Part shown: positions 1 to 11,345 of the stretch, one piece after another
Layout of the letters: each line of letters starts with the position of its first letter
Position numbering within the stretch: position 1 is the stretch's first letter
Source: Crocinitomicaceae bacterium
GTDB taxonomy: Bacteria > Bacteroidota > Bacteroidia > Flavobacteriales_D > Crocinitomicaceae
DNA length: 11,345 bases
Direction of reading: 5' to 3'
Assembly: GCA_013215515.1 (NCBI GenBank)
Contig: JABSPC010000013.1
Coordinates: 1-11,345, forward strand
Translations under genes and position numbers: made by a program
The notes under the pieces: generated by a model
The model's database searches: none
What the model was told of the DNA's origin: nothing
The model's input: the letters and a program-made list of their open reading frames with translations, nothing else

Positions 1-2889
1 TAATCCATGGCCAATTTTTTTCCATCGCATATAGAAGGTTGACTTACCATAAACATCAGGTGGGGTAGTCATTGCTGTGCCGTAATCTAAATAACTTGGA
101 TCTATTGCTGGAGGGCCAGTTCTGTAAACCGCTATTATCGCAGATGAATTTGAAACTGCACCTTCGACGTCTTCAGAATTCCAAGTATTTACGGCAATTT
201 GGCCGTAGCGCATTGGTTTGGATTCACCCTCTACGAAGTCAGGGAAAGGGAATGCTGGGCTTGGAATAAAATGTCTGTAGACTTTTTCATCTCCTGTGTC
301 TGTTTCAAAATCGGAGAAATTAACTTCCGCAGAAATTGAGGTGTCCGTCCAGCTATCTGGGCTATTATAATCTATAATTCCAGGACTAAGAATATCCAAA
401 GCAATAGAAAAGGCTTTGTTCTCATCTATATCTACATGGATGTATTCGGCAAGGTTTTCATTATCGATCAATACTATAGGGTCCAACACCCAAATGCTGC
501 CAGTTGATCCACTTGAATTTTTGAGAACAAGAAAGGTGTTATAACCTTGCTTCAACCAACTTAAACGCATTCCGTCTTCAATAGCATCTTTCTCTAATTC
601 AACATCGAACTTGTAACTTTCAACTGTTGTGAGACCATCCAACTTGGGAAACTGAATAAGTTCGTCTGCCGTTAAGGCCAAATCAGAAACGTTTAATACT
701 TCAATGGATGGAGTAGAAGTGGGGCTGCCTTTAAATAAATTAAGCCATCCGTGTTCAAAGTGAATTTCAAATTTTTGAACATCGTCGCAAACAGCTTCTT
801 GAGCTTCTGTCCAATTCCAATCTACTACAATTCCAGACACACCTTCTCGTTCAAGGATTGCAATGTCGTCTGAGTTGAGGTTCGGATCAGAACTCGTTCC
901 GTCATTATTTAATGTTGAATGATCTAAATATTTTGCATTGACGTTATCCGGTGGTGGTGGAACATTTCCAATCAAATTTACCACTGCTTTATTCGATAAA
1001 TCACTTTCTCTGCCGAAAAGGTCAAGTGCCGTTACGTGATAAGCAAATTCATCTTTAATCAAATGTCCATCTTGATAGTATTGCCGCGCTTCTGGCCAAT
1101 TATCTGGGAGCTCTTGTTGTTCCTCTAGAGATGATGTAGTAATATAAACAGGCTCTTCTTTTGTAATGTTTTCAGGATTCAAACTATCGTCCAATCGGTA
1201 TGCATTGTATGCAACTGGACCGTTCGCATATCTTCTTCGGTTTGGATTCAAATGTGCATCCCAGTGAAGTCCTACGGTATATTTAGAGACCAATTCTAAA
1301 TCTTCATCATAGGAAGAACCAGAAGGCAATTGTGTTGCAATAAGGTCTTCAGGAGCTTCAAGCTCACCTCCTGGAATAGGGCGAAGGCCACAGATTATTT
1401 TAGAAAGTTGTAATCCTGATAGTCGCTCGTGATCGTAATGAAAACGATAAATAACGATCCCATCTCCTTCTAGGATTAATTCGTCAATGTCTGCCCCGCT
1501 AATTTTAGCAACAACCTCTTGATCTGTAAAAGTCTCTGTAATTGGGTAAACATAATTCGGATCATTAAATGATCTTGCCTTAATTACCAATTCAGTACTG
1601 GTAAATTTGACGAATATTTGAACCTCCTTAACCGTAGTATTGAATTGAATTTTAGTTTCGTTGCCAACAATAAAATTGGAACTAATCGAATTAAAGGATA
1701 GACCTTTATCCGATCGGAAAAGTTCAGATGTATTTTTAACAATTTTAGGAGCTGATAAATTCATGAAAACCACATTGTCATATACTTCTGTGGCTTGTAT
1801 GTTTTCATCGGAATCAAAGAGATTGAAATCTATCTGATGCTCAAGTCTTGCAAGATGATCTTTCGGGTACTTCACCTCAATTTTATAATCATAAATTTTG
1901 CTTCGCTGAACATTGTCATCAATCCAGTAGGTTCCAATAATTCTGGCAATTCGCTTATTCAATTGTGTGATTCGTAAAATGTCATAAGATGATGTCTCAA
2001 GGCTATCATCTTCTCCTTCTTCCAGTTCAGGAATGCTCCATCCTACTGGAACAGATTCGCCATCTGGAATTCTCATTTGAAGCATTAAATCTCTTAATTC
2101 ATCAAATTCATCTAATGAGATTGGTTCAGGAGTAACACCGATAGCTTCAATTCTACGCAGAGCTTCATTGTAATCTGTAGTGATGTTTTTACCAAGCGGA
2201 AATCCGTATTCGCCCTTGGTCATTGGCTCCCATTCTCTCGTGTCTCTACAACAGTATGTACAAATTCTAAGGATATGAATTTCAAATCCCTTAAAGTGAA
2301 GTTGTGTAATTTCTGGTGCCCAAATAATTATTTTACGCTTCCCAGTTTTTGGAGGTGATACTTCAATGGGTTCGTACTTTTCTTGACCACTTTGGGCGAT
2401 AATAGTGAACTTTGTCTTTTTTACAATATTGACATAAATCTCTATTCGAGATGGAGGACATTTTTTGAATTTGAGATGAATAGTTTCTGGCAGCTTCAGT
2501 GCATTAGCAGGTTTTGTTTGAGGGAAACAGCAAAAAGGAAACGGGCGTTTACCAGAACGTTTTAAGTCTGTTTGTTGAACGTTTATTTTTTTAACTGGTT
2601 CTTTTAAATCGTTGCCTGTAAATCCACCAAACCATTCCAAGGGGTCATTGGAATGGTTTGTATTATCTCCACTTTCATAATCAAGAACATTGATGGGTAT
2701 AGCTACAGATACGCCTTGATAATCAACGCAATCCATAACACTCCTTGCGTGGTTCACACTTCTGTAAAGGCGAACGCCTGAATTTGGAAAGCCTAATTTT
2801 TCAGGAAAGCTCCAGCGAAGATGAATTCCTTTTTCGATTCCTTCGGATTCATTTGTTCCTAAACCAATAAATTCTAATTGACTATCCAT
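1..2889 (-). CDS. Very large fibronectin-III-like protein of unknown function (partial, C-terminus off the left edge)
   Basis: An uninterrupted reading frame runs from an ATG at 2889 to the left edge: 963 codons with no stop, so the C-terminus lies outside the window. I do not recognise a named family. The N-terminus (MDSQLEFIGLG) is not a signal peptide and I see no membrane segment. Residues 21-43 carry GIHLRWSFPEKLGFPNSG followed by VRLYRS, and residues near 318-340 carry GTYWIDD then YDYKIEV; both look like conserved beta-strand motifs. Residues about 510-637 read as a fibronectin-III-like domain (APEDL opening, LHWDA, YNAYR, then VTALDLFGRESDLS). A second similar unit follows a proline run (PPPP, near 640). 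Cys pairs occur in CCF (near 121) and CTYCC. The domains suggest a structural or binding protein that stays inside the cell or leaves by a non-Sec route; this is inference. It is transcribed away from the sulfur cluster and is probably unrelated to it. Confidence 0.85.
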   Translation of the reverse strand, partial: MDSQLEFIGLGTNESEGIEKGIHLRWSFPEKLGFPNSGVRLYRSVNHARSVMDCVDYQGVSVAIPINVLDYESGDNTNHSNDPLEWFGGFTGNDLKEPVKKINVQQTDLKRSGKRPFPFCCFPQTKPANALKLPETIHLKFKKCPPSRIEIYVNIVKKTKFTIIAQSGQEKYEPIEVSPPKTGKRKIIIWAPEITQLHFKGFEIHILRICTYCCRDTREWEPMTKGEYGFPLGKNITTDYNEALRRIEAIGVTPEPISLDEFDELRDLMLQMRIPDGESVPVGWSIPELEEGEDDSLETSSYDILRITQLNKRIARIIGTYWIDDNVQRSKIYDYKIEVKYPKDHLARLEHQIDFNLFDSDENIQATEVYDNVVFMNLSAPKIVKNTSELFRSDKGLSFNSISSNFIVGNETKIQFNTTVKEVQIFVKFTSTELVIKARSFNDPNYVYPITETFTDQEVVAKISGADIDELILEGDGIVIYRFHYDHERLSGLQLSKIICGLRPIPGGELEAPEDLIATQLPSGSSYDEDLELVSKYTVGLHWDAHLNPNRRRYANGPVAYNAYRLDDSLNPENITKEEPVYITTSSLEEQQELPDNWPEARQYYQDGHLIKDEFAYHVTALDLFGRESDLSNKAVVNLIGNVPPPPDNVNAKYLDHSTLNNDGTSSDPNLNSDDIAILEREGVSGIVVDWNWTEAQEAVCDDVQKFEIHFEHGWLNLFKGSPTSTPSIEVLNVSDLALTADELIQFPKLDGLTTVESYKFDVELEKDAIEDGMRLSWLKQGYNTFLVLKNSSGSTGSIWVLDPIVLIDNENLAEYIHVDIDENKAFSIALDILSPGIIDYNSPDSWTDTSISAEVNFSDFETDTGDEKVYRHFIPSPAFPFPDFVEGESKPMRYGQIAVNTWNSEDVEGAVSNSSAIIAVYRTGPPAIDPSYLDYGTAMTTPPDVYGKSTFYMRWKKIGHGL

Positions 2890-3452
2890 AGATTGAGCGG
2901 ACAAAAGTGAAAGTGGTTATTAAATAAAAAAGTTAATTTAGACATATTATTTTAAACTTAACGACTAAGTGATTGATCGCGAGAATAATATGTTTTGAAT
3001 ACACTTTAATATAGCTGGATTGACACCAATAAAGACTGGCACTTCAAGTAGATAAAAGAAAAAGGAGTCGTTTTAATAATGAGTGTTTCTGCGCAGCATA
3101 TTAGGCAAATGTGCGGTGCTTAATTTGTTGGTGTTAATTCTGTTATACTCACGACCGAGACAAGAAGATTGTTCTGGTCTAATAAGATTTCGTAGAAATT
3201 ATTCGAAAAGCGAGTAGCGATTGTTAGACTACAAGTCGATTTTTATACATGATAAGACATGCGGTTCGCTAGCAGCCATATTAATTGAGCTTCTAAATCG
3301 ATGTTAGCGAAATAATAACACCTACATAATGTTGTCCTCGTAGGACGATTGCAAACCTCAAGAAAGTACTATTTCTGTCCATCTCTCTTATTTATAGAAA
3401 CCAAATTGATAGCACCATTAAAAGACGAAAATTAGAATGGGAAAAGAACCGT
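2890..3452. other. Gene-free intergenic stretch of about 560 bp
   Basis: No convincing coding region, tRNA or named RNA is visible on either strand. Both flanking genes read leftwards, so the stretch should hold the 3' end of the Lrp-family transcript and the promoter of the large protein. I found no CAAAnnTA octamer (minus-strand TAnnTTTG) in it. The clearest structure is a short hairpin in the 3330-3352 region, with arms GTCCT and AGGAC around a CGT loop. It lacks a T tract on either side, so it is not a standard terminator. Confidence 0.5.
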
Positions 3453-3908
3453 TTATACTGGAATAGGTCTGTTGATGGGCTCTTCAAGAGAGATAAACGT
3501 TTCAGTCCTTGTAATCCCTTTAATTTCTTGAACCTTAGTATTCAAAATTTGCATCAAGTGATCATTGTCCCGCGCATATAGCTTAACAAACAAGCCGTAC
3601 ACTCCGGTGGTATAATGGGCTTCTACTACTTCGTCAATGCGGTTTAATTTCTCAACGATATCTGTATAGTGACTATTTCGATCCATAAAGATCCCAACAA
3701 AGGCGCAAGTGTGATAGCCTAATTTCTTTTCATCCAACTGAACAGTATACCCTTTTATGTATCCTGCCTTCTTAATCTTTGCCAAACGCTGGTGAATTGC
3801 CGCGCTTGTCATTCCCACATACGATGCTATATCAGTGACTTTTACACGAGCGTCACGCGTCAAGTACTTTAAGATTTTACGATCGGTACTATCAATTTGT
3901 AATGACAT
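3453..3908 (-). CDS. Lrp/AsnC-family transcriptional regulator
   Basis: This is a 151-residue protein, the usual length for the family. Residues about 5-62 form the N-terminal AsnC-type helix-turn-helix (DRKILKYLTRDARVKVTDIA, then SAAIHQRLAKIKKAGYIKGY). Residues about 65-140 form the RAM effector-binding and oligomerisation domain (AFVGIF, then VVEAHYTTGVYGLFVKLYA). Such proteins bind DNA as dimers to octamers or hexadecamers and respond to amino acids. The ATG at 3908 gives the canonical N-terminus and has an A-rich leader. The gene is divergent from the sulfate-assimilation cluster across a 155-bp shared intergenic region with AT-rich palindromes, so local control of sulfur genes and autoregulation are likely. 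The effector cannot be read from sequence; cysteine, methionine or a precursor are candidates by context only. Confidence 0.93.
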   Translation of the reverse strand: MSLQIDSTDRKILKYLTRDARVKVTDIASYVGMTSAAIHQRLAKIKKAGYIKGYTVQLDEKKLGYHTCAFVGIFMDRNSHYTDIVEKLNRIDEVVEAHYTTGVYGLFVKLYARDNDHLMQILNTKVQEIKGITRTETFISLEEPINRPIPV

Positions 3909-3961
3909 TTGTTAAATAAGTTAATATATGTAAGTGAAAGCGCTAAAATAAATACTATTTC

Positions 3962-3976
3962 CTTAATTAAATTAAG
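3962..3976. promoter_or_regulatory. Perfect AT-rich palindrome, candidate Lrp-family operator 1
   Basis: CTTAATTAAATTAAG has two perfect 7-nt inverted arms around a single A. The length (15 bp) and AT centre fit the size of Lrp/AsnC dimer sites. It lies at the expected transcription start of the regulator gene, where binding would give autoregulation. AT-rich DNA makes chance palindromes common. Confidence 0.35.
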
Positions 3977-3986
3977 TAATTCTATG

Positions 3987-3994
3987 CAAATGTA
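3987..3994 (-). promoter_or_regulatory. Candidate -7 element for the Lrp/AsnC-family gene
   Basis: Read on the minus strand this is TACATTTG, a match to the Bacteroidota -7 consensus TAnnTTTG. It would place the transcription start near 3980, giving a leader of about 70 nt. No clear TTG is seen at the expected -33 position, so the call rests on one octamer. Confidence 0.35.
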
Positions 3995-4010
3995 TAAAAA
4001 TCTATTTTAT
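3994..4010. promoter_or_regulatory. AT-rich inverted repeat, candidate Lrp-family operator 2
   Basis: The 17 bp ATAAAAATCTATTTTAT have 6-nt inverted arms (ATAAAA and TTTTAT) around 5 nt. The centre (4002) is 33 bp from the centre of the first palindrome (3969), about three helical turns, so one oligomer could contact both on the same DNA face. It lies upstream of both candidate divergent -7 elements. Confidence 0.3.
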
Positions 4011-4037
4011 CACCCTAGTAAGTCTATAGAGTAATAG

Positions 4038-4045
4038 TATATTTG
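4038..4045 (+). promoter_or_regulatory. Candidate -7 element for the sulfate-assimilation operon
   Basis: TATATTTG matches TAnnTTTG exactly. The transcription start would fall near 4051, leaving only about 13 nt before the ATG at 4064. There is no obvious -33 TTG. If correct, it excludes the upstream TTG at 4043 as the start of the first gene. Confidence 0.4.
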
Positions 4046-4063
4046 TTCAAAAATTGGAATAAG

Positions 4064-4294
4064 ATGATAATTGATGCGGTTGGATTGGGAAGATTAGATG
4101 AGAACAGAGTGTCGTTGCTTAAAACGCTTTCATGGCGAATTATTGGAACAGTAGACACGATGTGTATCTCTTATTTTCTTACAGGAAAATTAGATGTTGC
4201 ATTGAGCATTGGAGGAATAGAAGTAGTGAGTAAAATGATTCTCTATTACTTCCACGAAAGAGCTTGGATCAAACTTTTAAAAAGACAGAAATGA
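4064..4294 (+). CDS. DUF2061-type small membrane protein
   Basis: The 76-residue product has the DUF2061 pattern: SLLKTLSWRIIGTVDT near residues 16-31, a hydrophobic stretch (MCISYFLTG), then LSIGGIEVVSKMILYYFHER and a C-terminal AW-basic tail. This reads as two short membrane helices with a basic end on one side. The family has no established biochemical role. From memory, it often sits beside sulfate-assimilation genes in Bacteroidota, and here its TGA overlaps the ATG of cysH (ATGA), so tight coupling is seen directly. The ATG at 4064 is preferred over a TTG at 4043 because the family-like sequence starts after it, GGAATAAG precedes it, and the TTG lies within a candidate promoter. A role in sulfate or sulfite handling at the membrane is only a guess. 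Confidence 0.85.
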   Translation: MIIDAVGLGRLDENRVSLLKTLSWRIIGTVDTMCISYFLTGKLDVALSIGGIEVVSKMILYYFHERAWIKLLKRQK

Positions 4295-4899
4295 ACTTGG
4301 CAGATATAAATAACGAACTAAGAGATAAATCTCCGCAAGAGATTATTGCTTGGGCGCTGGAAGTAGCAAAGAAACCTATTCTGACAACGAACTTTCGTCC
4401 ATTAGAAGCAACAATATTACATGCTGTTACGGTACAAGCGTCTGAGATTCCAGTCGTTTGGTGCGATAGCGGTTACAACACTAGAAAAACATATGAAAGC
4501 GCTGAACGTACGATCGGTCAATTGAATTTGAATATCGATCTCTATGTTCCAAAGCAGTCCGTTGCACACAGAAATGTTACGCTTGGGATTCCAGAAGTGG
4601 ATTCACCTGAGCATCAATATTTCACTTTCCAAGTAAAATTGGAACCATTTAAACGTGCAATGGAATGCCATCAACCGGATGTTTGGTTCACAAATTTGAG
4701 AAAGGGGCAAACAGCTCTCAGGTCTTCACTTGACATTGTGAGCCAAACATCTGGCGGGATGCTTAAGGTCTGTCCCTTCTTTTACTGGACGGACCCACAG
4801 CTTGAAGCGTACATAAAATCAAATGATTTAGAATCAGAAGATGAATATTACGATCCAACCAAAGCTCTTGAAAATAGAGAATGTGGATTGCACACATAA
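4291..4899 (+). CDS. cysH: CysH-family phosphoadenylyl-/adenylyl-sulfate reductase
   Basis: A cytoplasmic enzyme that reduces activated sulfate to sulfite with thioredoxin-type electrons. The 202-residue product has the ATP-PPase-like fold motifs (VVWCDSGYN near 55-63; EPFKRAM; WFTNLRKGQTALRSSL; CPFFYWTDPQLEAYI) and the C-terminal catalytic ECGLH with Cys198. It contains only four Cys (58, 126, 161, 198) and lacks the CC and CxxC ligand pairs that hold the [4Fe-4S] cluster in typical APS reductases, so by family rules it looks like a PAPS reductase. It is shorter than E. coli CysH (about 244), and the usual SFG near the N-terminus is replaced by TNFRP. No APS kinase accompanies it, so APS versus PAPS is open. 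The ATG at 4291 overlaps the previous stop; an upstream TTG at 4264 would add residues unlike the family. Confidence 0.9.
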   Translation: MNLADINNELRDKSPQEIIAWALEVAKKPILTTNFRPLEATILHAVTVQASEIPVVWCDSGYNTRKTYESAERTIGQLNLNIDLYVPKQSVAHRNVTLGIPEVDSPEHQYFTFQVKLEPFKRAMECHQPDVWFTNLRKGQTALRSSLDIVSQTSGGMLKVCPFFYWTDPQLEAYIKSNDLESEDEYYDPTKALENRECGLHT

Positions 4900-4908
4900 A
4901 AAATTAAG

Positions 4909-5805
4909 ATGAAAAATAAACACTTACTCGAATTGGAAAATGAAAGTATCTACATCCTTAGGGAAGTAGCGGCTCAATTCAAGAAACCGGTCCTGCTGTT
5001 TTCAGGTGGCAAAGACTCAATTGTGATGGCGCGATTAGCTCAAAAAGCATTTTATCCATCTAAAATTCCGTTTTCGTTTATGCATATCGATACAGGACAT
5101 AATTTTCCTGAGACAATCGAATTCAGAGATGAAATAGTAAAGGAACTGGGCGTAGATTTAATTGTACGTTATGTTCAAGACTCCGTTGATCAGAATAAAG
5201 TTCAAGAGGAATCTGGAAAATATGCAAGTAGAAATGCGCTTCAAACCGTGACATTACTTGATGCTATTGAAGAATTTGGATTTGATGCATGTCTTGGTGG
5301 GGCTAGACGAGATGAGGAAAAAAGTCGTGCAAAAGAAAGAATCTTCTCTGTTCGCGATGATTTTGGACAATGGGATTACAAACGTCAACGTCCAGAACCA
5401 TTTCAAATTTTGAATGGAAGAATCAATTTTGGAGAAAACGTACGTGTATTTCCAATTAGTAATTGGACTGAAGAGGATATCTGGACATATATTTTACAGG
5501 ATAATTTGCAGTTACCATCTGTATACTTTGCGCACAACCGAAAATTGGTGAAGCGTGAAGGAGCGTATATTGCGTACTCAGATTACCTCAATATTGTAGA
5601 ATCAGATGAGATTGAAGAAAAAACTGTGCGATTTAGAACAGTTGGGGATATGACATGTACGGCAGCATTTGTATCAGAGGCTGATACTGTTGAGAAAGTT
5701 CTTGTCGAAAATGTAGAATCAAAACATTCTGAACGAGGCGCAAGAATAGATGATAAAAGAAGTGAAAGTGCTCTTGAAGAGCGTAAAAAAGGAGGATATT
5801 TTTAG
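4909..5805 (+). CDS. cysD: Sulfate adenylyltransferase subunit 2 (CysD)
   Basis: The catalytic subunit of ATP sulfurylase, which makes APS and pyrophosphate from ATP and sulfate in the cytoplasm together with the GTPase CysN. The 298-residue length is typical. The PP-loop SGGKDS is at residues 32-37, followed by FSFMHIDTGHNFPET, the conserved GGARRDEEKSRAKER segment, PISNWTEEDIWTYI, and a C-terminal ERKKGGYF that is characteristic of CysD. The gene begins 9 nt after the cysH stop. Its last codons create the GGAGG that lies 12 nt before the cysN ATG, so this Shine-Dalgarno-like site may simply be a by-product of the conserved Lys-Gly-Gly codons. Confidence 0.97.
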   Translation: MKNKHLLELENESIYILREVAAQFKKPVLLFSGGKDSIVMARLAQKAFYPSKIPFSFMHIDTGHNFPETIEFRDEIVKELGVDLIVRYVQDSVDQNKVQEESGKYASRNALQTVTLLDAIEEFGFDACLGGARRDEEKSRAKERIFSVRDDFGQWDYKRQRPEPFQILNGRINFGENVRVFPISNWTEEDIWTYILQDNLQLPSVYFAHNRKLVKREGAYIAYSDYLNIVESDEIEEKTVRFRTVGDMTCTAAFVSEADTVEKVLVENVESKHSERGARIDDKRSESALEERKKGGYF

Positions 5806-5807
5806 TT

Positions 5808-7052
5808 ATGGAATTAGTAAGAATAAGTACAGCTGGAAGTGTGGATGATGGAAAAAGCACGCTAATCGGAAGGCTGTTATACGACAATAATGCTCTCACC
5901 GTAGAGCAAGAAGAATTGGTCGCTAAGAAGACTAAGGAGAAAGGATGGGACGATTTGGATTTAAGTGTTATCACTGATGGTTTGATGGCCGAACGAGAAC
6001 AAGGAATCACGATTGATGTCGCGAATATGTATTTCTCAACGAAGACGAGAAAGTTTATTATTACTGACAGCCCAGGGCACGTTGAATATACCAGAAATAT
6101 GGTTACTGGTGCTTCAACAGCGGAGACTTCAATTATTTTGGTGGATGCACGTAAAGGATTATTGGAACAAAGTTACCGTCACTTTTATATTAGTCAATTA
6201 CTTCGTTTGGAGAATGTGATTTTCTGTGTCAATAAAATGGATCTTGTTGATTATAGTGAAGACACCTTCCTTGAAATTGGAATTCAAATTAAAGGGATGG
6301 TAGAAGCACTGGATGCTGATATTCAGTACTCAATAGTGCCTGTGAGTTCATTAAAAGGAGATAATGTTGTGAACAGTTCAAACAACACGCCTTGGTATTC
6401 GGGACCAACTCTAAACGATATCCTGCACAAAGAGAAAGTAGCTGTTACCGAACGAACACCATTTCGATTCGATGTTCAGCAAGTCAATCATTCACAAGAA
6501 AAAGGATTTGTAGATTTTCGTGGGCTCGCAGGTCGTGTGATTAGTGGAAGCGTAAGAGTTGGAGATCGCATTGTTGCATTGCCTTCAAAGAAAGAAAGTG
6601 TCGTAACGGAAGTTCGACGTTATACCGAGTCATTGGATAGTGCTAAACAAGGAGATAGTATCACGATTTCTTTGGCTGATGAGATTGACGTAAGTCGAGG
6701 TGTGGTATTTTCTTCTCTGGATACAATTCCAAATGAAGACACATCAATCTCATGTACAGTAGTATGGATGGATGAAAAAGAAGGTAGAGCCGGAGCGAAG
6801 TATTTGCTCAAAACTGGATCACGGGAGTTCGCTGTGAAAATTCAAGCAATTCACACTAAAGTGGACCCAACCCAAGCAAACGCAAAGTTTGATGTTGACA
6901 CGATCGAAATCAATGATTTAACAAACATCGATTTGAAATTGAGCCAGCCTAGTTATTTGGATGCTTATTCAGAAAATAAATCGAATGGTGTTTTCATTTT
7001 GATTGATCCACAATCTAATAATACCGTAGCGGTAGGGTTTGTAAATAAGTAA
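5808..7052 (+). CDS. cysN: Sulfate adenylyltransferase subunit 1, GTPase (CysN)
   Basis: A translational-GTPase-like subunit that couples GTP hydrolysis to APS formation by CysD. G1 is GSVDDGKS at residues 10-17; the switch region has EREQGITIDVA; G3 is DSPGH at 87-91; G4 is NKMD at 142-145; and SIVPVSSLKGDNV supplies the G5 region. Beta-barrel domains follow to residue 414. That is shorter than E. coli CysN (about 475), and there is no C-terminal APS-kinase domain of the kind fused in CysNC proteins. The gene starts 2 nt after the cysD stop, as expected for a heterodimer encoded in one transcript. A small leader ORF begins 4 nt after its TAA. Confidence 0.97.
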   Translation: MELVRISTAGSVDDGKSTLIGRLLYDNNALTVEQEELVAKKTKEKGWDDLDLSVITDGLMAEREQGITIDVANMYFSTKTRKFIITDSPGHVEYTRNMVTGASTAETSIILVDARKGLLEQSYRHFYISQLLRLENVIFCVNKMDLVDYSEDTFLEIGIQIKGMVEALDADIQYSIVPVSSLKGDNVVNSSNNTPWYSGPTLNDILHKEKVAVTERTPFRFDVQQVNHSQEKGFVDFRGLAGRVISGSVRVGDRIVALPSKKESVVTEVRRYTESLDSAKQGDSITISLADEIDVSRGVVFSSLDTIPNEDTSISCTVVWMDEKEGRAGAKYLLKTGSREFAVKIQAIHTKVDPTQANAKFDVDTIEINDLTNIDLKLSQPSYLDAYSENKSNGVFILIDPQSNNTVAVGFVNK

Positions 7053-7056
7053 AGAA

Positions 7057-7140
7057 ATGAAGAAGTATAATTTCCATATGCATATGTGTTGTTGGTTTCC
7101 AAAAAGGAGGTCCGATACTGAAATAAACGCGCTTAGTTAG
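7057..7140 (+). CDS. Putative cysteine-sensing leader peptide (27 codons)
   Basis: A small ORF starting 4 nt after the cysN stop encodes MKKYNFHMHMCCWFPKRR followed by nine residues ending INALS, and stops at tandem in-frame TAG codons (7138-7143). It carries adjacent Cys codons (TGT TGT, 7087-7092) just after His-Met-His-Met, followed by Trp. It is immediately upstream of an intrinsic terminator and of the sulfite reductase gene, the arrangement of amino-acid attenuator leaders. Cysteine is the end product of this pathway. Internal ATGs at 7078 and 7084 could serve as alternative starts and keep the Cys codons. Short ORFs occur by chance, but the Cys pair, position and RNA pairing options together make this credible. 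Cys-rich leader peptides of sulfur operons are known in mycobacteria; I cannot confirm a described Bacteroidota family. Confidence 0.6.
   Translation: MKKYNFHMHMCCWFPKRRSDTEINALS
7094..7112 (+). promoter_or_regulatory. Candidate protector hairpin / antiterminator strand of an attenuator
   Basis: GGUUUCC (7094-7100) can pair with GGAGGUC (7106-7112) across a five-A loop, 7 bp with three G-U pairs. The same GGAGGUC can instead pair with GGCCUUC (7167-7173), 7 bp with two G-U pairs, which would consume the 5' arm of the terminator. A ribosome waiting at the Cys codons would cover 7094-7100 and free the second strand. No folding energies were computed. Confidence 0.45.
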
Positions 7141-7167
7141 TAGTATAAGTAGTAGTTAAACAGAAAG

Positions 7168-7198
7168 GCCTTCAATTCAAAATTGAAGGCTTTTTTTT
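7168..7198 (+). terminator. Strong intrinsic terminator between cysN and the sulfite reductase gene
   Basis: GCCTTCAATT (7168-7177) and AATTGAAGGC (7181-7190) form a perfect 10-bp stem with a 3-nt CAA loop, followed directly by eight T (7191-7198). Upstream AAAG can extend the stem against the T tract. It reads only in the plus direction. It ends 17 nt before the sulfite reductase ATG, with no recognisable promoter between them, so expression of that gene seems to need read-through or regulated antitermination. Confidence 0.92.
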
Positions 7199-7215
7199 AT
7201 TTAAAAACAATTGAA

Positions 7216-9318
7216 ATGAAAAGTTTTAGAACAGAGTTTGAGCAAGAGTCAGAAATTGGCAGAGCTCTCGTAGAAAAAGACATTATTGATTTGGAACAAA
7301 AGATTCGAGATTTCCACAGTGGAGAACTCGACGACGAACGATTTAGAACGTTGAGGTTGGCAAGAGGTGTTTATGGTCAACGCCAAACGGGAGTACAAAT
7401 GATCCGAATCAAAATTCCTTATGGGAAATTGAACGGTAAACAATTGGAACGGATTTGCGACGTATCGGAAGAATATTCGACAGGTAAATTACACATTACT
7501 ACCCGCCAAGATATTCAAATTCACTATGTCGAACTCGATCGAACACCAGAGCTATGGGCAGAATTGGAGAAGGATGAAATAACACTGCGTGAAGCTTGTG
7601 GTAACACTGTTAGAAATGTTACGGCTTCTGCATTATCTGGAATAGATCCCGAGGAAGAGTTCGATGTTCGTCCATATGCAGATGCGGTATTCAGGTATTT
7701 TTTGCGCAATCCTATATGTCAGGAAATGGGACGGAAAATTAAAATTTCGTTTTCAAATAACGTAGCAGATACTGCGCTATCGTTCATGCATGACTTAGGT
7801 TTTGTAGCCAAATATCGACTTGGAGAGAAAGGATTTAAGCTCGTTGTAGCAGGAGGACTTGGATCACAATCAAGGCAGGCAGATGTTCTGTTTGATTTCC
7901 TTCCCATAGAGAAAATTATTCCCGTAACCGAAGCAGTGCTGCGCTTGTTTGAACGAAATGGCGAACGTACGAATCGTATGAAGGCACGGTTGAAGTTTTG
8001 GGTTCGTGAAATTGGCATTGAAGCGTTTAAAGCTGAACTCAATAATGAATTGAAGTCTGTTGAGAAGGGTAATATCCCAATTGAAAACTTCGAATTTGAT
8101 ATTCAAGTTCCATTGATTGATGATGAAATTCATATTCAAGATATAGAAGAAAAGCAATTTATCGAGTGGAGGAATATTAATATTATTCAACAAAAGCAAG
8201 AAGGTTTATTTGCCATTGGTGTAAAGGTTAGACTGGGAGATTTTACAACAATTCAGGCTAGAAAAATTGCTGAGTTTGTTACTCTCTATACGGGTGATGA
8301 GTTAACATTAACAATTGATCAAAACTTGGTGATTCGTCACGTACAGGAAAAGCAATTGGCTCGATTCTTCTATTTACTCAAAGCTTTGGATTTGGTAGAT
8401 GTAGGTTACGGAAAATCGACAGATATTACGGCATGTCCAGGTACGGATACTTGTAATTTAGGAATCGCGAATAGCACGGCGTTGAGTAATGTATTGGAAG
8501 AAGTTCTTACTCTAGAATATCCTAAGTATAGAGATCAAAGTATTATTTCGATCAAAATAAGTGGATGTATGAACGCTTGTGGCCAGCACATGATTGCAAA
8601 CCTAGGATTTCAAGGAATGTCAATTCGCACAAAGGACAAACGCGTTGTGCCTGCAATTCAAGTTCTGTTAGGAGGAGGAAATCTTGGTGATGGAAAAGGT
8701 CGATTTGCGGATAAAGTAATCAAGATCCCAAGTAAGCGGGCGATTGAAGCTTTACGTCTTGTACTGGATGAGTTTGAAACTTCAGAGCGTGATTCATTTT
8801 TGAATTTCTATGATTCGAAAGGCGAAAAGTACTTCTATGATTTATTGAAACCACTTGGTGATTTGGAGTCTTTAAAAGACACTGATTTCATTGATTGGGG
8901 GCAAGATGAATTGTATAAAAAGGAAATTGGAATTGGCGAATGTGCTGGTGTTGTGATCGATTTGGTTTCAACCTTATTCAAAGAAACAGAAGTTAAACTG
9001 GATTTATCTAAAGAAGCTATTGAGAAAAACTCCTTTGGAGATTCAATTTATCATAGCTATAGCGCAATTGTAAATACGGCTAAAGCAATGTTGACTTCAG
9101 AAGGAAAGAGAACGAATTCACATACAGCGATTATCAATCAATTTGATGAAGAGTTCGTGCAAAGTGGAAAATTGAAATTCGATTTCTTATTTAAAACGAC
9201 TGCTTTAAAAATGAGAAATGAAAAGCCATCGAAAGAAGTCGCAGAAAAATTAATAAAGGATGCTCAATCGTTCTATGGTGTTACGATAGCGAAACGAATC
9301 CTACAAACAGAAAATTAG
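7216..9318 (+). CDS. sir: Ferredoxin-type sulfite reductase (siroheme/[4Fe-4S]) with C-terminal HEPN-like domain
   Basis: Reduces sulfite to sulfide with six electrons. The 700-residue product has the ferredoxin-like half domain (GQRQTGVQMIRIKIPYG, then LHITTRQDIQIHYVEL), the siroheme-contacting NTVRNVTASALSGID, and the four cluster/siroheme cysteines C407, C413, C451 and C455 in CX5C (ACPGTDTCNLG) and CX3C (GCMNACGQ) motifs. A nitrite reductase has a similar fold; the neighbours decide for sulfite. After GIGECAGVV (574-580), residues about 585-700 form a helical extension that resembles a HEPN domain, with R632-TNS-H636. From memory, HEPN-fused reductases of this kind are annotated in Bacteroidota. 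No flavoprotein subunit is nearby, so ferredoxin is the likely donor. The ATG at 7216 is chosen because the upstream TTG at 7183 lies inside the terminator stem. Confidence 0.92.
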   Translation: MKSFRTEFEQESEIGRALVEKDIIDLEQKIRDFHSGELDDERFRTLRLARGVYGQRQTGVQMIRIKIPYGKLNGKQLERICDVSEEYSTGKLHITTRQDIQIHYVELDRTPELWAELEKDEITLREACGNTVRNVTASALSGIDPEEEFDVRPYADAVFRYFLRNPICQEMGRKIKISFSNNVADTALSFMHDLGFVAKYRLGEKGFKLVVAGGLGSQSRQADVLFDFLPIEKIIPVTEAVLRLFERNGERTNRMKARLKFWVREIGIEAFKAELNNELKSVEKGNIPIENFEFDIQVPLIDDEIHIQDIEEKQFIEWRNINIIQQKQEGLFAIGVKVRLGDFTTIQARKIAEFVTLYTGDELTLTIDQNLVIRHVQEKQLARFFYLLKALDLVDVGYGKSTDITACPGTDTCNLGIANSTALSNVLEEVLTLEYPKYRDQSIISIKISGCMNACGQHMIANLGFQGMSIRTKDKRVVPAIQVLLGGGNLGDGKGRFADKVIKIPSKRAIEALRLVLDEFETSERDSFLNFYDSKGEKYFYDLLKPLGDLESLKDTDFIDWGQDELYKKEIGIGECAGVVIDLVSTLFKETEVKLDLSKEAIEKNSFGDSIYHSYSAIVNTAKAMLTSEGKRTNSHTAIINQFDEEFVQSGKLKFDFLFKTTALKMRNEKPSKEVAEKLIKDAQSFYGVTIAKRILQTEN

Positions 9319-9320
9319 TT

Positions 9321-10112
9321 ATGAAAACAAATAAAAATACGAAGGTCACTTTGGTAGGTGCAGGTCCAGGTGATCCTAAATTGATAACATTGGCTGGAGT
9401 TGAAGCCTTGAAAGAAGCAGACATCGTTTTGTATGATGCCTTGGTGAGTAAAGAATTATTGAAATATGCAGATAATGCCGATTTCATCTACGTTGGGAAG
9501 CGTAAGAACAATCATCGGTATAGTCAAGATGAAATTAACCGCCTGATCGTTTCAAAGGCCTTTGAATATGGTAATGTAGTACGATTGAAAGGGGGGGATC
9601 CATTTATTTTTGGAAGAGGAGCGGAAGAAATTGAATATGTGGATTCATTTGGAATTGAAACTGAAGTGATTCCAGGTATTTCATCTGCAACTTCTGTCCC
9701 TCAACGACAAGGGATTTCACTTACGCAAAGAGGAGTATCGGAAAGCTTTTGGGTAATTACGGGAACTACAACTCAACGGAAGTTATCACAAGATTTAGCA
9801 TTGGCTGCTCAAAGTACTGCAACGGTTGTCTTGCTGATGGGAATGTCAAACCTCGGAAGTATCGTAAGGGAATATCAGACTTTGGGTAAAGGAAATATTC
9901 CAGTTGCGATAATCCAAAATGGCTTCCTTGAAAACGAAAATGTTGGAATCGGTCGAATTGATACAATTGAGGAAATTGTAAAGGATCAAGGGCTTTCTAA
10001 TCCATCAATTATTGTAATCGGAGAAGTGGTAAGAACGAGTAATAAACTTGCAGCCATTTATGATGACGTTGAATCTTTCTACACTGAAAAATCTAATAAT
10101 CTAAAATCATGA
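9321..10112 (+). CDS. cobA: Uroporphyrinogen-III C-methyltransferase (SUMT, CobA)
   Basis: Transfers two methyl groups from S-adenosylmethionine to uroporphyrinogen III to give precorrin-2, the first committed step to siroheme. The 263-residue single-domain protein has the first tetrapyrrole-methylase signature VGAGPGDPKLITLAGVEALK near residues 11-30, then VVRLKGGDPFIFGRGAEE, VIPGISSATSVPQRQGI with the THR-like segment replaced by SLTQRG, and FWVITGT. The gene starts 2 nt after the sulfite reductase stop, and its TGA overlaps the next ATG. The siroheme made would serve the adjacent reductase. A run of seven G (9591-9597) encodes the conserved Lys-Gly-Gly and the frame is intact across it. 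Confidence 0.96.
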   Translation: MKTNKNTKVTLVGAGPGDPKLITLAGVEALKEADIVLYDALVSKELLKYADNADFIYVGKRKNNHRYSQDEINRLIVSKAFEYGNVVRLKGGDPFIFGRGAEEIEYVDSFGIETEVIPGISSATSVPQRQGISLTQRGVSESFWVITGTTTQRKLSQDLALAAQSTATVVLLMGMSNLGSIVREYQTLGKGNIPVAIIQNGFLENENVGIGRIDTIEEIVKDQGLSNPSIIVIGEVVRTSNKLAAIYDDVESFYTEKSNNLKS

Positions 10113-10678
10113 ACGAGCTTTATCCGATTTTTTTAAAGGCAGATCAGATCAACATATTGCTTATTGGTGGAGGAAGTGTTGGAGCTGAAAAATTACACTT
10201 TTTACTTAAATCAAGCCCACAAGCAAAGGTTGAAATCGTTTCTGAATCATTTGATGATGAGGTTATTGTATTGGCACAAAAATTTAGCTTGCCATTATTT
10301 AAGGCTCGATTTAAAGAAGCGCATTTGAATGGAAAAACAATAGTCATTGCAGCTACAAACGATTTGGTAGTGAATGAAGAAATTTACGAACGATGTCGTG
10401 AGAAAAATATATTGGTGAACGTTGCTGACAATCCTGATTTGTGCGACTTCTACTTAGGAGGAATTGTAACAAAAGGGAATTTGAAAATTGCAATATCAAC
10501 CAATGGTAAATCACCAACGATGGCAAAACGAATGCGGCAATATTTGGAAGCTGAAATTCCCGATGACATTGATGAGTTATTAGAGAATTTGCGCACTTAT
10601 CGCCAAACACTCAATGGAGATTTTACCGAGAAAATAAATCGCCTTAATGAATTAACAAAGAACATAATTGAAAATTAA
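10109..10678 (+). CDS. Precorrin-2 dehydrogenase (possibly also sirohydrochlorin ferrochelatase)
   Basis: The 189-residue product corresponds to the N-terminal part of CysG and to Met8p/SirC proteins. It has YPIFLKAD at the N-terminus, the NAD-binding GGGSVGAEKL near residues 20-29, IAATND, NVADNPDLCDFYLGG, and the CysG-type AISTNGKSPTMAKRMRQYLE followed by a helical tail. It oxidises precorrin-2 to sirohydrochlorin with NAD+; Met8p-like members also insert iron, while SirC members do not, and this cannot be settled here. No separate CbiX/SirB chelatase is in the window. The ATG overlaps the cobA stop (ATGA), as in a coupled siroheme pair equivalent to a split CysG. Confidence 0.92.
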   Translation: MNELYPIFLKADQINILLIGGGSVGAEKLHFLLKSSPQAKVEIVSESFDDEVIVLAQKFSLPLFKARFKEAHLNGKTIVIAATNDLVVNEEIYERCREKNILVNVADNPDLCDFYLGGIVTKGNLKIAISTNGKSPTMAKRMRQYLEAEIPDDIDELLENLRTYRQTLNGDFTEKINRLNELTKNIIEN

Positions 10679-10679
10679 C

Positions 10680-10761
10680 TTCCCCCTTTGAAGGGGGATT
10701 CAGGGGGATGATAAACTACAATCCATGAATCACCTCCCTTAATCCCTCCTCAAGGAGGGAA
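10680..10761. repeat. Two-armed inverted repeat (REP/MITE-like element)
   Basis: Two 32-nt arms, 10680-10711 and 10730-10761, are inverted copies matching at 25 of 32 positions, around an 18-nt centre. Each arm itself folds: CCCCCTT/AAGGGGG at 10682-10697 and CCCTCCT/AGGAGGG at 10744-10759, each 7 bp with a 2-nt loop. The G/C-rich character stands out from the AT-rich neighbours. From memory, similar CCCCCTTTGAAGGGGG elements are widespread in Bacteroidota genomes. It fills the gap between the siroheme gene and the flavoprotein gene and could act as a transcript stabiliser or partial terminator, but there is no T tract. Confidence 0.85.
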
Positions 10762-10773
10762 AAAACAAACAAA

Positions 10774-11345
10774 ATGATTAAAACAGACATACTTATTATC
10801 GGTGCTGGTCCAGTAGGGCTTTTCACAGTATTTGAAGCGGGACTTTTAAAATTGCGCTGCCACTTGATTGATGCATTGCCACAACCAGGCGGACAATGTT
10901 CAGAAATTTATCCAAAGAAGCCGATATATGACATCCCAGCTTATCCAGAAGTGTTGGCGGGAGACTTGATCGATAATCTTATGGAACAAATTAAACCTTT
11001 CGAACCTGGATTTACTTTGGGTGAGTCAGCTGTGGAAATTGAAGAAACAGATGACAATCAGTTTATTGTGACCACTGATAAGGGAACTAAACATCAAGCT
11101 TCAGTGATAGCGATTGCGGGTGGACTGGGAGTTTTTACTCCACGAAAACCACCGGTGGAGCAATTAGAACGCTTTGAGTCGAAAGGGATCAACTATTTCG
11201 TCAAAGATCCTGAGCAATTTAGAGACAAGAAAGTTGTTATTTCTGGCGGTGGAGATAGTGCTCTTGATTGGGCAATCTACCTTGCTAATGGTGTGGCGAA
11301 AGAAGTGTCATTGATTCATAGAAGTCAACGATTTCGAGCTCACCC
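10774..11345 (+). CDS. TrxR-like ferredoxin-NADP+ reductase (partial, cut by the right edge)
   Basis: The first 190 codons of a flavoprotein of the FNR2/YumC type, which moves electrons between NADPH and ferredoxin. The FAD-binding GAGPVGLFTVFEAGL is at residues 10-24, followed by LPQPGGQCSEIYPKKPIYDI, AGGLGVFTPRKP and the NADPH-binding GGGDSALDWAIYLANG; the visible end is HRSQRFRAH. The redox CxxC of true thioredoxin reductases is absent and is replaced by the GGGDSALDW context typical of FNR2. The ATG at 10774 follows an A-rich leader. It is in line with the siroheme genes but separated by an inverted-repeat element, so co-transcription is not assured. The natural role is to reduce the ferredoxin used by the sulfite reductase. 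Confidence 0.93.
   Translation, partial: MIKTDILIIGAGPVGLFTVFEAGLLKLRCHLIDALPQPGGQCSEIYPKKPIYDIPAYPEVLAGDLIDNLMEQIKPFEPGFTLGESAVEIEETDDNQFIVTTDKGTKHQASVIAIAGGLGVFTPRKPPVEQLERFESKGINYFVKDPEQFRDKKVVISGGGDSALDWAIYLANGVAKEVSLIHRSQRFRAH

Follow-up and report, generated by a model that had tools for sequence, protein, structure and literature searches.

The leader of the Escherichia coli trp operon acts by ribosome-mediated transcription attenuation. The element described here lies in an 11,345 nt stretch of DNA from a Crocinitomicaceae bacterium (GCA_013215515.1, JABSPC010000013.1, positions 1-11,345; hereafter the window), and it resembles the trp leader in having a leader ORF with control codons, a segment 2 that a stalled ribosome would release, and a 2:3 pairing that is exclusive with 3:4 pairing. 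In the window, a 1:2 hairpin is shared as well. Unlike in E. coli trp, the candidate control codons are Cys (perhaps also Met), the window element sits between two genes with its leader ORF beginning 4 nt past the stop codon of the preceding cysN, the 1:2 hairpin is not a feature of the family as a whole, and the leader stop codon often lies beyond segment 2. Work by Canestrari et al. in 2020 reportedly presents mycobacterial polycysteine short ORFs as cysteine-responsive attenuators, leaderless ones according to its title. The position of the window ORF directly behind cysN would speak against a 5'-terminal ATG.

Candidate Cys leaders have been reported in Actinobacteria, with Mycobacterium regions that the relevant part of the study describes as being without conserved terminator hairpins (PMC1262725). 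The leaders considered here share with the mycobacterial and actinobacterial ones the presence of Cys-codon ORFs before cys operons, whereas an intrinsic terminator and an antiterminator, as well as the lineage, set them apart from the Mycobacterium regions as that part of the study presents them. For Salmonella mgtCBR, PMC3641672 describes a single leader RNA with a pair of leader ORFs and a pair of attenuators that answer to ATP and proline. The tandem leaders reported below are similar in arrangement, but unlike mgtCBR as described there, both are Cys-rich and near sulfur genes. Clues to leader-peptide attenuation before amino-acid operons, pheA, hisG and others, have been presented for Flavobacterium psychrophilum, in an account whose section on 5' cis-regulatory RNAs names no cysteine or sulfate genes (PMC9723704). 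A passage in a Bacteroides transcriptome paper mentions leader-like ORFs (PMC7366714), and the available text of a premature-terminator survey contains no word beginning Bacteroid or Flavobacter (PMC2965389). Among the open-licence full-text matches listed, none described a Cys attenuator ahead of sulfite reductase in these bacteria. Assignment to a known Rfam leader family was rejected, as the window matches Thr_leader at 29.5 bits against a gathering threshold of 55, and an Rfam search of 20 relative loci returned two tRNA matches and no leader family. What appears to be new here, and is well supported by sequence comparison, is a variant of trp-type logic that uses Cys codons.

A candidate attenuator within a sulfate-assimilation gene cluster

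We interpret the element as a transcription attenuator of the trp type, governed by ribosomes at Cys codons and located inside a sulfate-assimilation gene cluster, and place the probability of this reading at about 0.9. It draws on the leader ORF and the clustering of its codons, the terminator, the alternative pairing, the position of that pairing, and its persistence through sequence change, all of which come from the sequence and its comparison. The element lies between cysN and a gene of the sulfite/nitrite-reductase family (Table 1). NCBIfam reductase models score the 700-residue product of this gene below their cut-offs, and the name sulfite reductase comes from gene context, so we call the gene sulfite-reductase-like. 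If the cluster is one operon and the element is co-transcribed with cysN, an attenuator at this place would split sulfite reduction and siroheme synthesis from sulfate activation.

Table 1. Features of the window and of related loci. Positions are those of the window unless a locus is named.
Feature	Position	Strand	Description
DUF2061 protein	4064-4294	+	Pfam; upstream, not behind the attenuator
CysH-like PAPS/APS reductase	4291-4899	+	Pfam PAPS_reduct; NCBIfam CysH models below cut-offs; upstream of the attenuator
CysD	4909-5805	+	NCBIfam above cut-off; upstream, not behind the attenuator
cysN, sulfate adenylyltransferase large subunit	5808-7052	+	NCBIfam TIGR02034, 448.4 bits (cut-off 336.1)
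Leader ORF	7057-7140	+	27 codons and stop, MKKYNFHMHMCCWFPKRRSDTEINALS*; from translation; Cys-clustered ORFs at the equivalent place in relatives
Proposed control codons	7078-7092	+	Met-His-Met-Cys-Cys (ATG CAT ATG TGT TGT); Cys codons 7087-7092
Segment 1	7094-7100	+	GGUUUCC; in 5' arm of the protector hairpin; not conserved in nearest relatives
Segment 2	7106-7112	+	GGAGGUC; switch segment with alternative pairing; 13 nt after the last Cys codon
Segment 3	7167-7173	+	GGCCUUC; in terminator 5' arm; partner of segment 2 in the antiterminator
Intrinsic terminator	7162-7198	+	Stem 7162-7196; U-tract 7191-7198 (eight U)
Sulfite/nitrite-reductase family gene	7216-9318	+	First gene past the attenuator; above cut-off for Pfam NIR_SIR and NIR_SIR_ferr
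Uroporphyrinogen-III C-methyltransferase	9321-10112	+	Siroheme pathway; TIGR01469 above cut-off
Siroheme-synthase N-terminal domain protein	10109-10678	+	TIGR01470 above cut-off; Pfam
tRNA-Cys	L007:3551-3624	-	
tRNA-Cys	L228:106-177	-	
Loci with tandem leaders	L007, L114, L130, L138, L140, L167, L168, L171, L197, L198, L205, L228, L230, L233, L236, L238, L240		

The original prediction held that segment 2 pairs end to end with either segment 1 or segment 3, the latter being part of a perfect 10-bp terminator, and that this makes a cysteine attenuator. Both a check of the sequence and folding bear out the positions and pairings of the three 7-mers. The terminator has a perfect 10-bp core (7168-7177/7181-7190) within a longer stem that runs into the eight U and has 16 pairs when G-U pairs are allowed (15 pairs in the fold). 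With a Cys-codon leader, a U-tailed terminator, alternative pairing and a sulfite-reductase-like gene behind them, the proposed cysteine attenuator appears well supported. Computed stabilities are -9.9 kcal/mol for the 1:2 hairpin (7090-7117), -10.6 kcal/mol for the 2:3 duplex and -17.2 kcal/mol for the terminator.

When the leader sequence past codon 12 was put through 2000 dinucleotide shuffles, 0.6% of them contained a 7-mer able to pair end to end with both an upstream partner and the terminator arm, with G-U pairs allowed and the upstream partner at most 30 nt away. Judged by energy alone, the window's 2:3 duplex is not significantly stronger than in shuffles (p = 0.13 and 0.11 in two scorings) and its 1:2 fold is borderline (p = 0.055). 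Taken alone, the window is no more than suggestive, and the case for the switch draws its strength from relatives. Within the leader ORF, and overlapping segment 2, AAAGGAGGU (7103-7111) resembles a perfect Shine-Dalgarno sequence. It may merely reflect the need of segment 2 for a partner in a CCUUC-type arm.

Cysteine leaders in related genomes

Matches to the reductase protein were present in 10 of 60 genomes, in 55 of 240 genomes from the family, in 62 of 399 from the order and in 105 of 395 from the class, where each count includes the window's own genome and the class count includes weak matches to other reductases. Leaders were scored as ORFs of at most 60 codons, with ATG as the only start considered, that contain two Cys within four codons, are not largely contained in a long same-strand ORF, and are followed by a terminator 12-150 nt on. 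Across 247 loci around homologous genes (1.43 Mb, with some loci being overlapping stretches of one genome), leader plus terminator was matched 84 times in the sense orientation, in 67 loci, and 4 times in antisense; counting the window, there are 85 matches in 68 loci. This comparison of sense and antisense is the control that we rely on. Counts by residue (C 84, M 73, K 72 and T 62, against W 4, H 12 and D 13) do not separate Cys from common residues, because chance alone should often place two common residues within four codons of each other, and they are a weak control also because Cys leaders are counted again under other residues.

In many relatives the leader occupies the gap that separates cysN from the reductase gene, or precedes the latter or its neighbours. 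At the class level, a match occurs in 31 of 85 examined genomes and in 15 families (14 without L203, which has an offset of 72 nt and is probably a false positive, yet is kept in the counts), and a leader is missing or undetected in the other 54. The 85 were drawn from 103 matching genomes besides the window's own and G117, and some have short upstream stretches. A single scan of genome contigs supplied the best 80 named loci, some with little upstream DNA, and five of these have a leader: L011, from the near relative Flavobacteriales bacterium UBA6051, L012, and the Christiangramia/Gramella loci L036, L059 and L068. In the rest it is absent or escaped detection. Two loci from the window's genus (L008 and L009) show no leader, and in these a cysN-like frame abuts the reductase gene. 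Leaders seen by eye in L006 and L113 fail the rule and are uncounted. Matches from a looser scan in L061, L070 and L086 were taken for chance.

A further search covered PALP-family and Cys/Met-PLP-enzyme genes (12 genomes, 30 loci each) and yielded one convincing case: at L273:1299-1431 (plus strand), a leader whose run of five Cys codons is followed by a terminator precedes a PALP-family (cysteine-synthase-like) gene. The element is therefore not limited to the reductase. Two other candidates from that search, L284 and L297, were judged chance-like.

Predicted antiterminator pairing persists as sequences change

Removal of leaders more than 75% identical left a non-redundant set of 56 leaders from 46 loci, the window included. 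For each, the stretch after the Cys cluster was paired with the terminator 5' arm and compared with 300 dinucleotide shuffles. The 2:3 duplex is stronger than in shuffles, with a mean z of -2.24 and a Stouffer z of -16.8 (n = 56; -16.3 without L203); individually, p < 0.05 in 32 of the 56 leaders and p ≥ 0.05 in the remaining 24. Segment 2 also appears fitted to its own terminator, with an energy of -13.5 kcal/mol for the leader's own partner against -9.4 kcal/mol for partners swapped between leaders. The set was scored by the first Cys cluster, a rule adopted in place of the last cluster after scoring by the latter had mis-assigned L103, L167 and L230. The last-cluster version, with 52 leaders, gave a Stouffer z of -15.6 and 25 leaders with p < 0.05.

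The position of the pairing recurs as well. The median distance from the last clustered Cys codon to the start of segment 2 is 11.5 nt, and the distance falls within 7-18 nt in 42 of 56 leaders, compared with 28% in shuffles. Given the generally known footprint of the ribosome, an offset of 7-18 nt is where the leading edge should end when Cys is in the A site.

Covariation among homologous leaders had been put forward as a check on the original prediction, and its absence as a refutation. That refuting outcome did not occur: the 2:3 pairing of the 56 leaders does exceed shuffles despite changed sequences. When the four nearest leaders are aligned, 87.5% of the cells of the 2:3 helix are paired, whereas slid controls give 35-59%. 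Two 2:3 pairs have changed on both sides in this alignment, a result that 60 of 500 letter shuffles of the four rows also reach.

Ribosome position and the protector hairpin

Several features of a trp-type attenuator are present: a leader ORF with clustered codons for an amino acid linked to the operon's product, an intrinsic terminator before a structural gene, and an antiterminator exclusive with that terminator. Exposure of the switch segment by a stalled ribosome is seen in the geometry and in folding with an assumed footprint. In this masked folding, RNA upstream of the ribosome edge was removed and the terminator 3' arm was absent, with footprint edges assumed from general knowledge. Across the 56 leaders, the mean predicted probability of the antiterminator is 0.86 with the ribosome stalled at the last Cys codon, 0.88 at the first Cys codon, 0.17 at the stop codon and 0.66 with no ribosome. 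An earlier set of 48 leaders, retained from 52 after rows with weak duplexes were dropped, gave 0.86, 0.88, 0.17 and 0.63 in the same four states. The corresponding values for the window are 0.89, 0.89, 0.00 and 0.14, in agreement with the predicted antitermination on stalling and termination once the leader is finished.

With the ribosome at the last Cys codon, the probability of the antiterminator exceeds 0.5 in 52 of 56 leaders; with the ribosome at the stop codon, it does so in nine. These nine, in which a stop-codon ribosome is not predicted to abolish the antiterminator, include L002 and L003, which are near relatives. In 50 of 56 leaders the footprint of a stop-codon ribosome extends over one base or more of segment 2, and in 38 over half of it or more, so many members may use occlusion by the ribosome. 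In the window it covers no base of segment 2, and therefore the 1:2 hairpin would have to do the blocking, which it does in the model. Naked RNA favours the antiterminator in 39 of 56 leaders, so read-through would be common wherever the leader is not translated, which differs from trp.

The original prediction also likened the element to the full 1:2, 2:3, 3:4 logic of trp attenuation. The 2:3 part of that likeness is upheld by the 56 leaders, whereas the 1:2 part is present in the window but is not generally conserved. In 47 leaders (of 52, with weak duplexes and one very long offset dropped), the 1:2 region folds slightly better than shuffles (Stouffer z of -3.3, with p < 0.05 in 7 of 47), and 64% of the cells of the window's 1:2 helix are paired when it is placed on the four aligned nearest leaders. 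On these figures, the 1:2 hairpin was rejected as a general feature of the family.

We propose that when charged tRNA-Cys is scarce, a ribosome translating the leader would stall at the Cys codons and cover segment 1, leaving segment 2 free just past its leading edge. Segment 2 could then capture the terminator 5' arm before the 3' arm is made, and the polymerase would continue into the reductase gene. With sufficient cysteine the ribosome would pass the Cys codons, and segment 2 would be held in the 1:2 hairpin, as in the window, or lie under a ribosome at the stop codon, as in many relatives. With segment 2 sequestered in either way, the terminator would form and transcription would stop.

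Methionine codons, tandem leaders and tRNA-Cys genes

The leaders are also enriched in Met codons. The Cys-cluster zone, taken from the first Cys of the cluster up to the third codon after its last Cys, has 60 in-frame and 4 out-of-frame ATG in the 56 leaders. Met accounts for 60 of the 218 non-Cys codons of the zone, and 41 of the 56 leaders have at least one. An earlier leader set had 65 ATG in frame, with 1 and 6 in the other frames. Over whole peptides, Met makes up 11.8% of residues in 52 leaders, compared with 1.5% in 107 other intergenic ATG ORFs. The window leader reads MHMCC.

These counts point to a refinement of the attenuator reading in which Cys and Met codons both exert control, so that either uncharged tRNA-Cys or uncharged tRNA-Met would stall the ribosome. 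We favour it among the readings that would explain the Met enrichment, and regard it as a serious prospect that falls somewhat short of even odds. The Met codons could instead be internal starts or re-initiation sites, or could set the speed of the ribosome, and shortages of Met and Cys are metabolically linked, so a single sensor could suffice. A Met of the zone lies behind a Cys codon and cannot be the start of an ORF that includes that Cys, but the extra Met codons of the window are all N-terminal of its Cys codons and are possible starts. The enrichment offers a clean hypothesis of dual sulfur-amino-acid sensing that is decidable by codon replacement.

Tandem leaders, each with its own terminator, occur upstream of sulfur-assimilation genes or their neighbours in 17 of 68 loci (Table 1). 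All 252 loci together contain six tRNA genes, and four of these are tRNA-Cys genes (in L007, L224, L225 and L228), which have the same direction as the reductase gene and precede it by ~20-230 nt. The tRNA-Cys genes of L007 and L224 are directly between the attenuator terminator and the reductase gene. The leaders of L225 and L228 are followed by a peroxiredoxin-like gene as the first long ORF, and not by a sulfate gene; a domain search on L225 found AhpC/TSA and 1-Cys C-terminal domains.

More tentatively, the leaders may belong to a widespread and undescribed group of sulfur-amino-acid attenuators, in which Cys/Met leaders before or inside sulfate-assimilation operons would sense both tRNA-Cys and tRNA-Met, some of them in series and some with a tRNA-Cys gene behind. 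Should this be true, a tRNA-Cys gene behind an attenuator would mean that the sensed tRNA is controlled together with the enzymes that make its amino acid. A ribosome-based sensor belonging to the cluster itself would permit a direct test of how sulfate reduction is matched to the demand for cysteine. The combination of trp-type logic and recurrent geometry in very different sequences, with members that have or lack a protector hairpin, are intergenic or are in tandem, may form a natural series for studying what attenuation requires.

Other explanations for the switch

A different signal could operate the same RNA switch. Copper-responsive upstream peptides are a precedent for arrest by a nascent peptide, and the CC, CMCC and CCMMC motifs of the leaders resemble soft-metal ligands, so a metal or thiol-reactive signal might be bound by the Cys/Met-rich nascent peptide and arrest the ribosome via the exit tunnel. 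We consider this improbable. The 7-18 nt offset in 42 of 56 leaders fits Cys in the A site and not Cys residues in the tunnel, some leaders stop one codon past the last Cys (MCCMMCI*), and the genes downstream in the window are for sulfur assimilation rather than metal handling.

It is very improbable, in our judgement, that the switch controls translation of the reductase by sequestering its start rather than controlling termination. The terminator does end ~20 nt before the reductase start codon, but the stem runs into U8 and excludes that codon, and in some other loci it is 150-257 nt from the next long ORF. The presence of a U-tailed stem in every kept leader is no evidence against translational control, as the scan required such a stem.

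It is scarcely credible that the leader ORF is fortuitous and that 7162-7198 acts as an ordinary partial terminator to lower expression of the reductase relative to cysH, cysD and cysN. In favour of this reading, the terminator is strong in its own right and the 2:3 energy of the window, taken singly, falls short of significance; the sense to antisense ratio of 84 to 4, the recurrent Cys spacing and the fit of segment 2 to its own terminator all argue against it.

Other features of the window

Between the siroheme-synthase-domain gene and a flavoprotein gene, positions 10678-10763 contain the short inverted repeats CCCCCTTTGAAGGGGG and CCCTCCTCAAGGAGGG; Rfam whalefall-1 matches in this interval are weak, on both strands and below threshold. 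At the other end of the cluster, CCTAGTAAGTCTATAGA (4014-4030) precedes DUF2061-cysH-cysD-cysN and is possibly an operator. By eye, it is like a CCTAnTAAnnCnATAGG-like palindrome that heads the sulfate genes in several of 13 loci. A search for operator-like palindromes gave 389 matches across 175 loci and was too loose to inform. Beside CCTAGTAAGTCTATAGA is a divergent Lrp/AsnC-type gene (3453-3908, minus strand).
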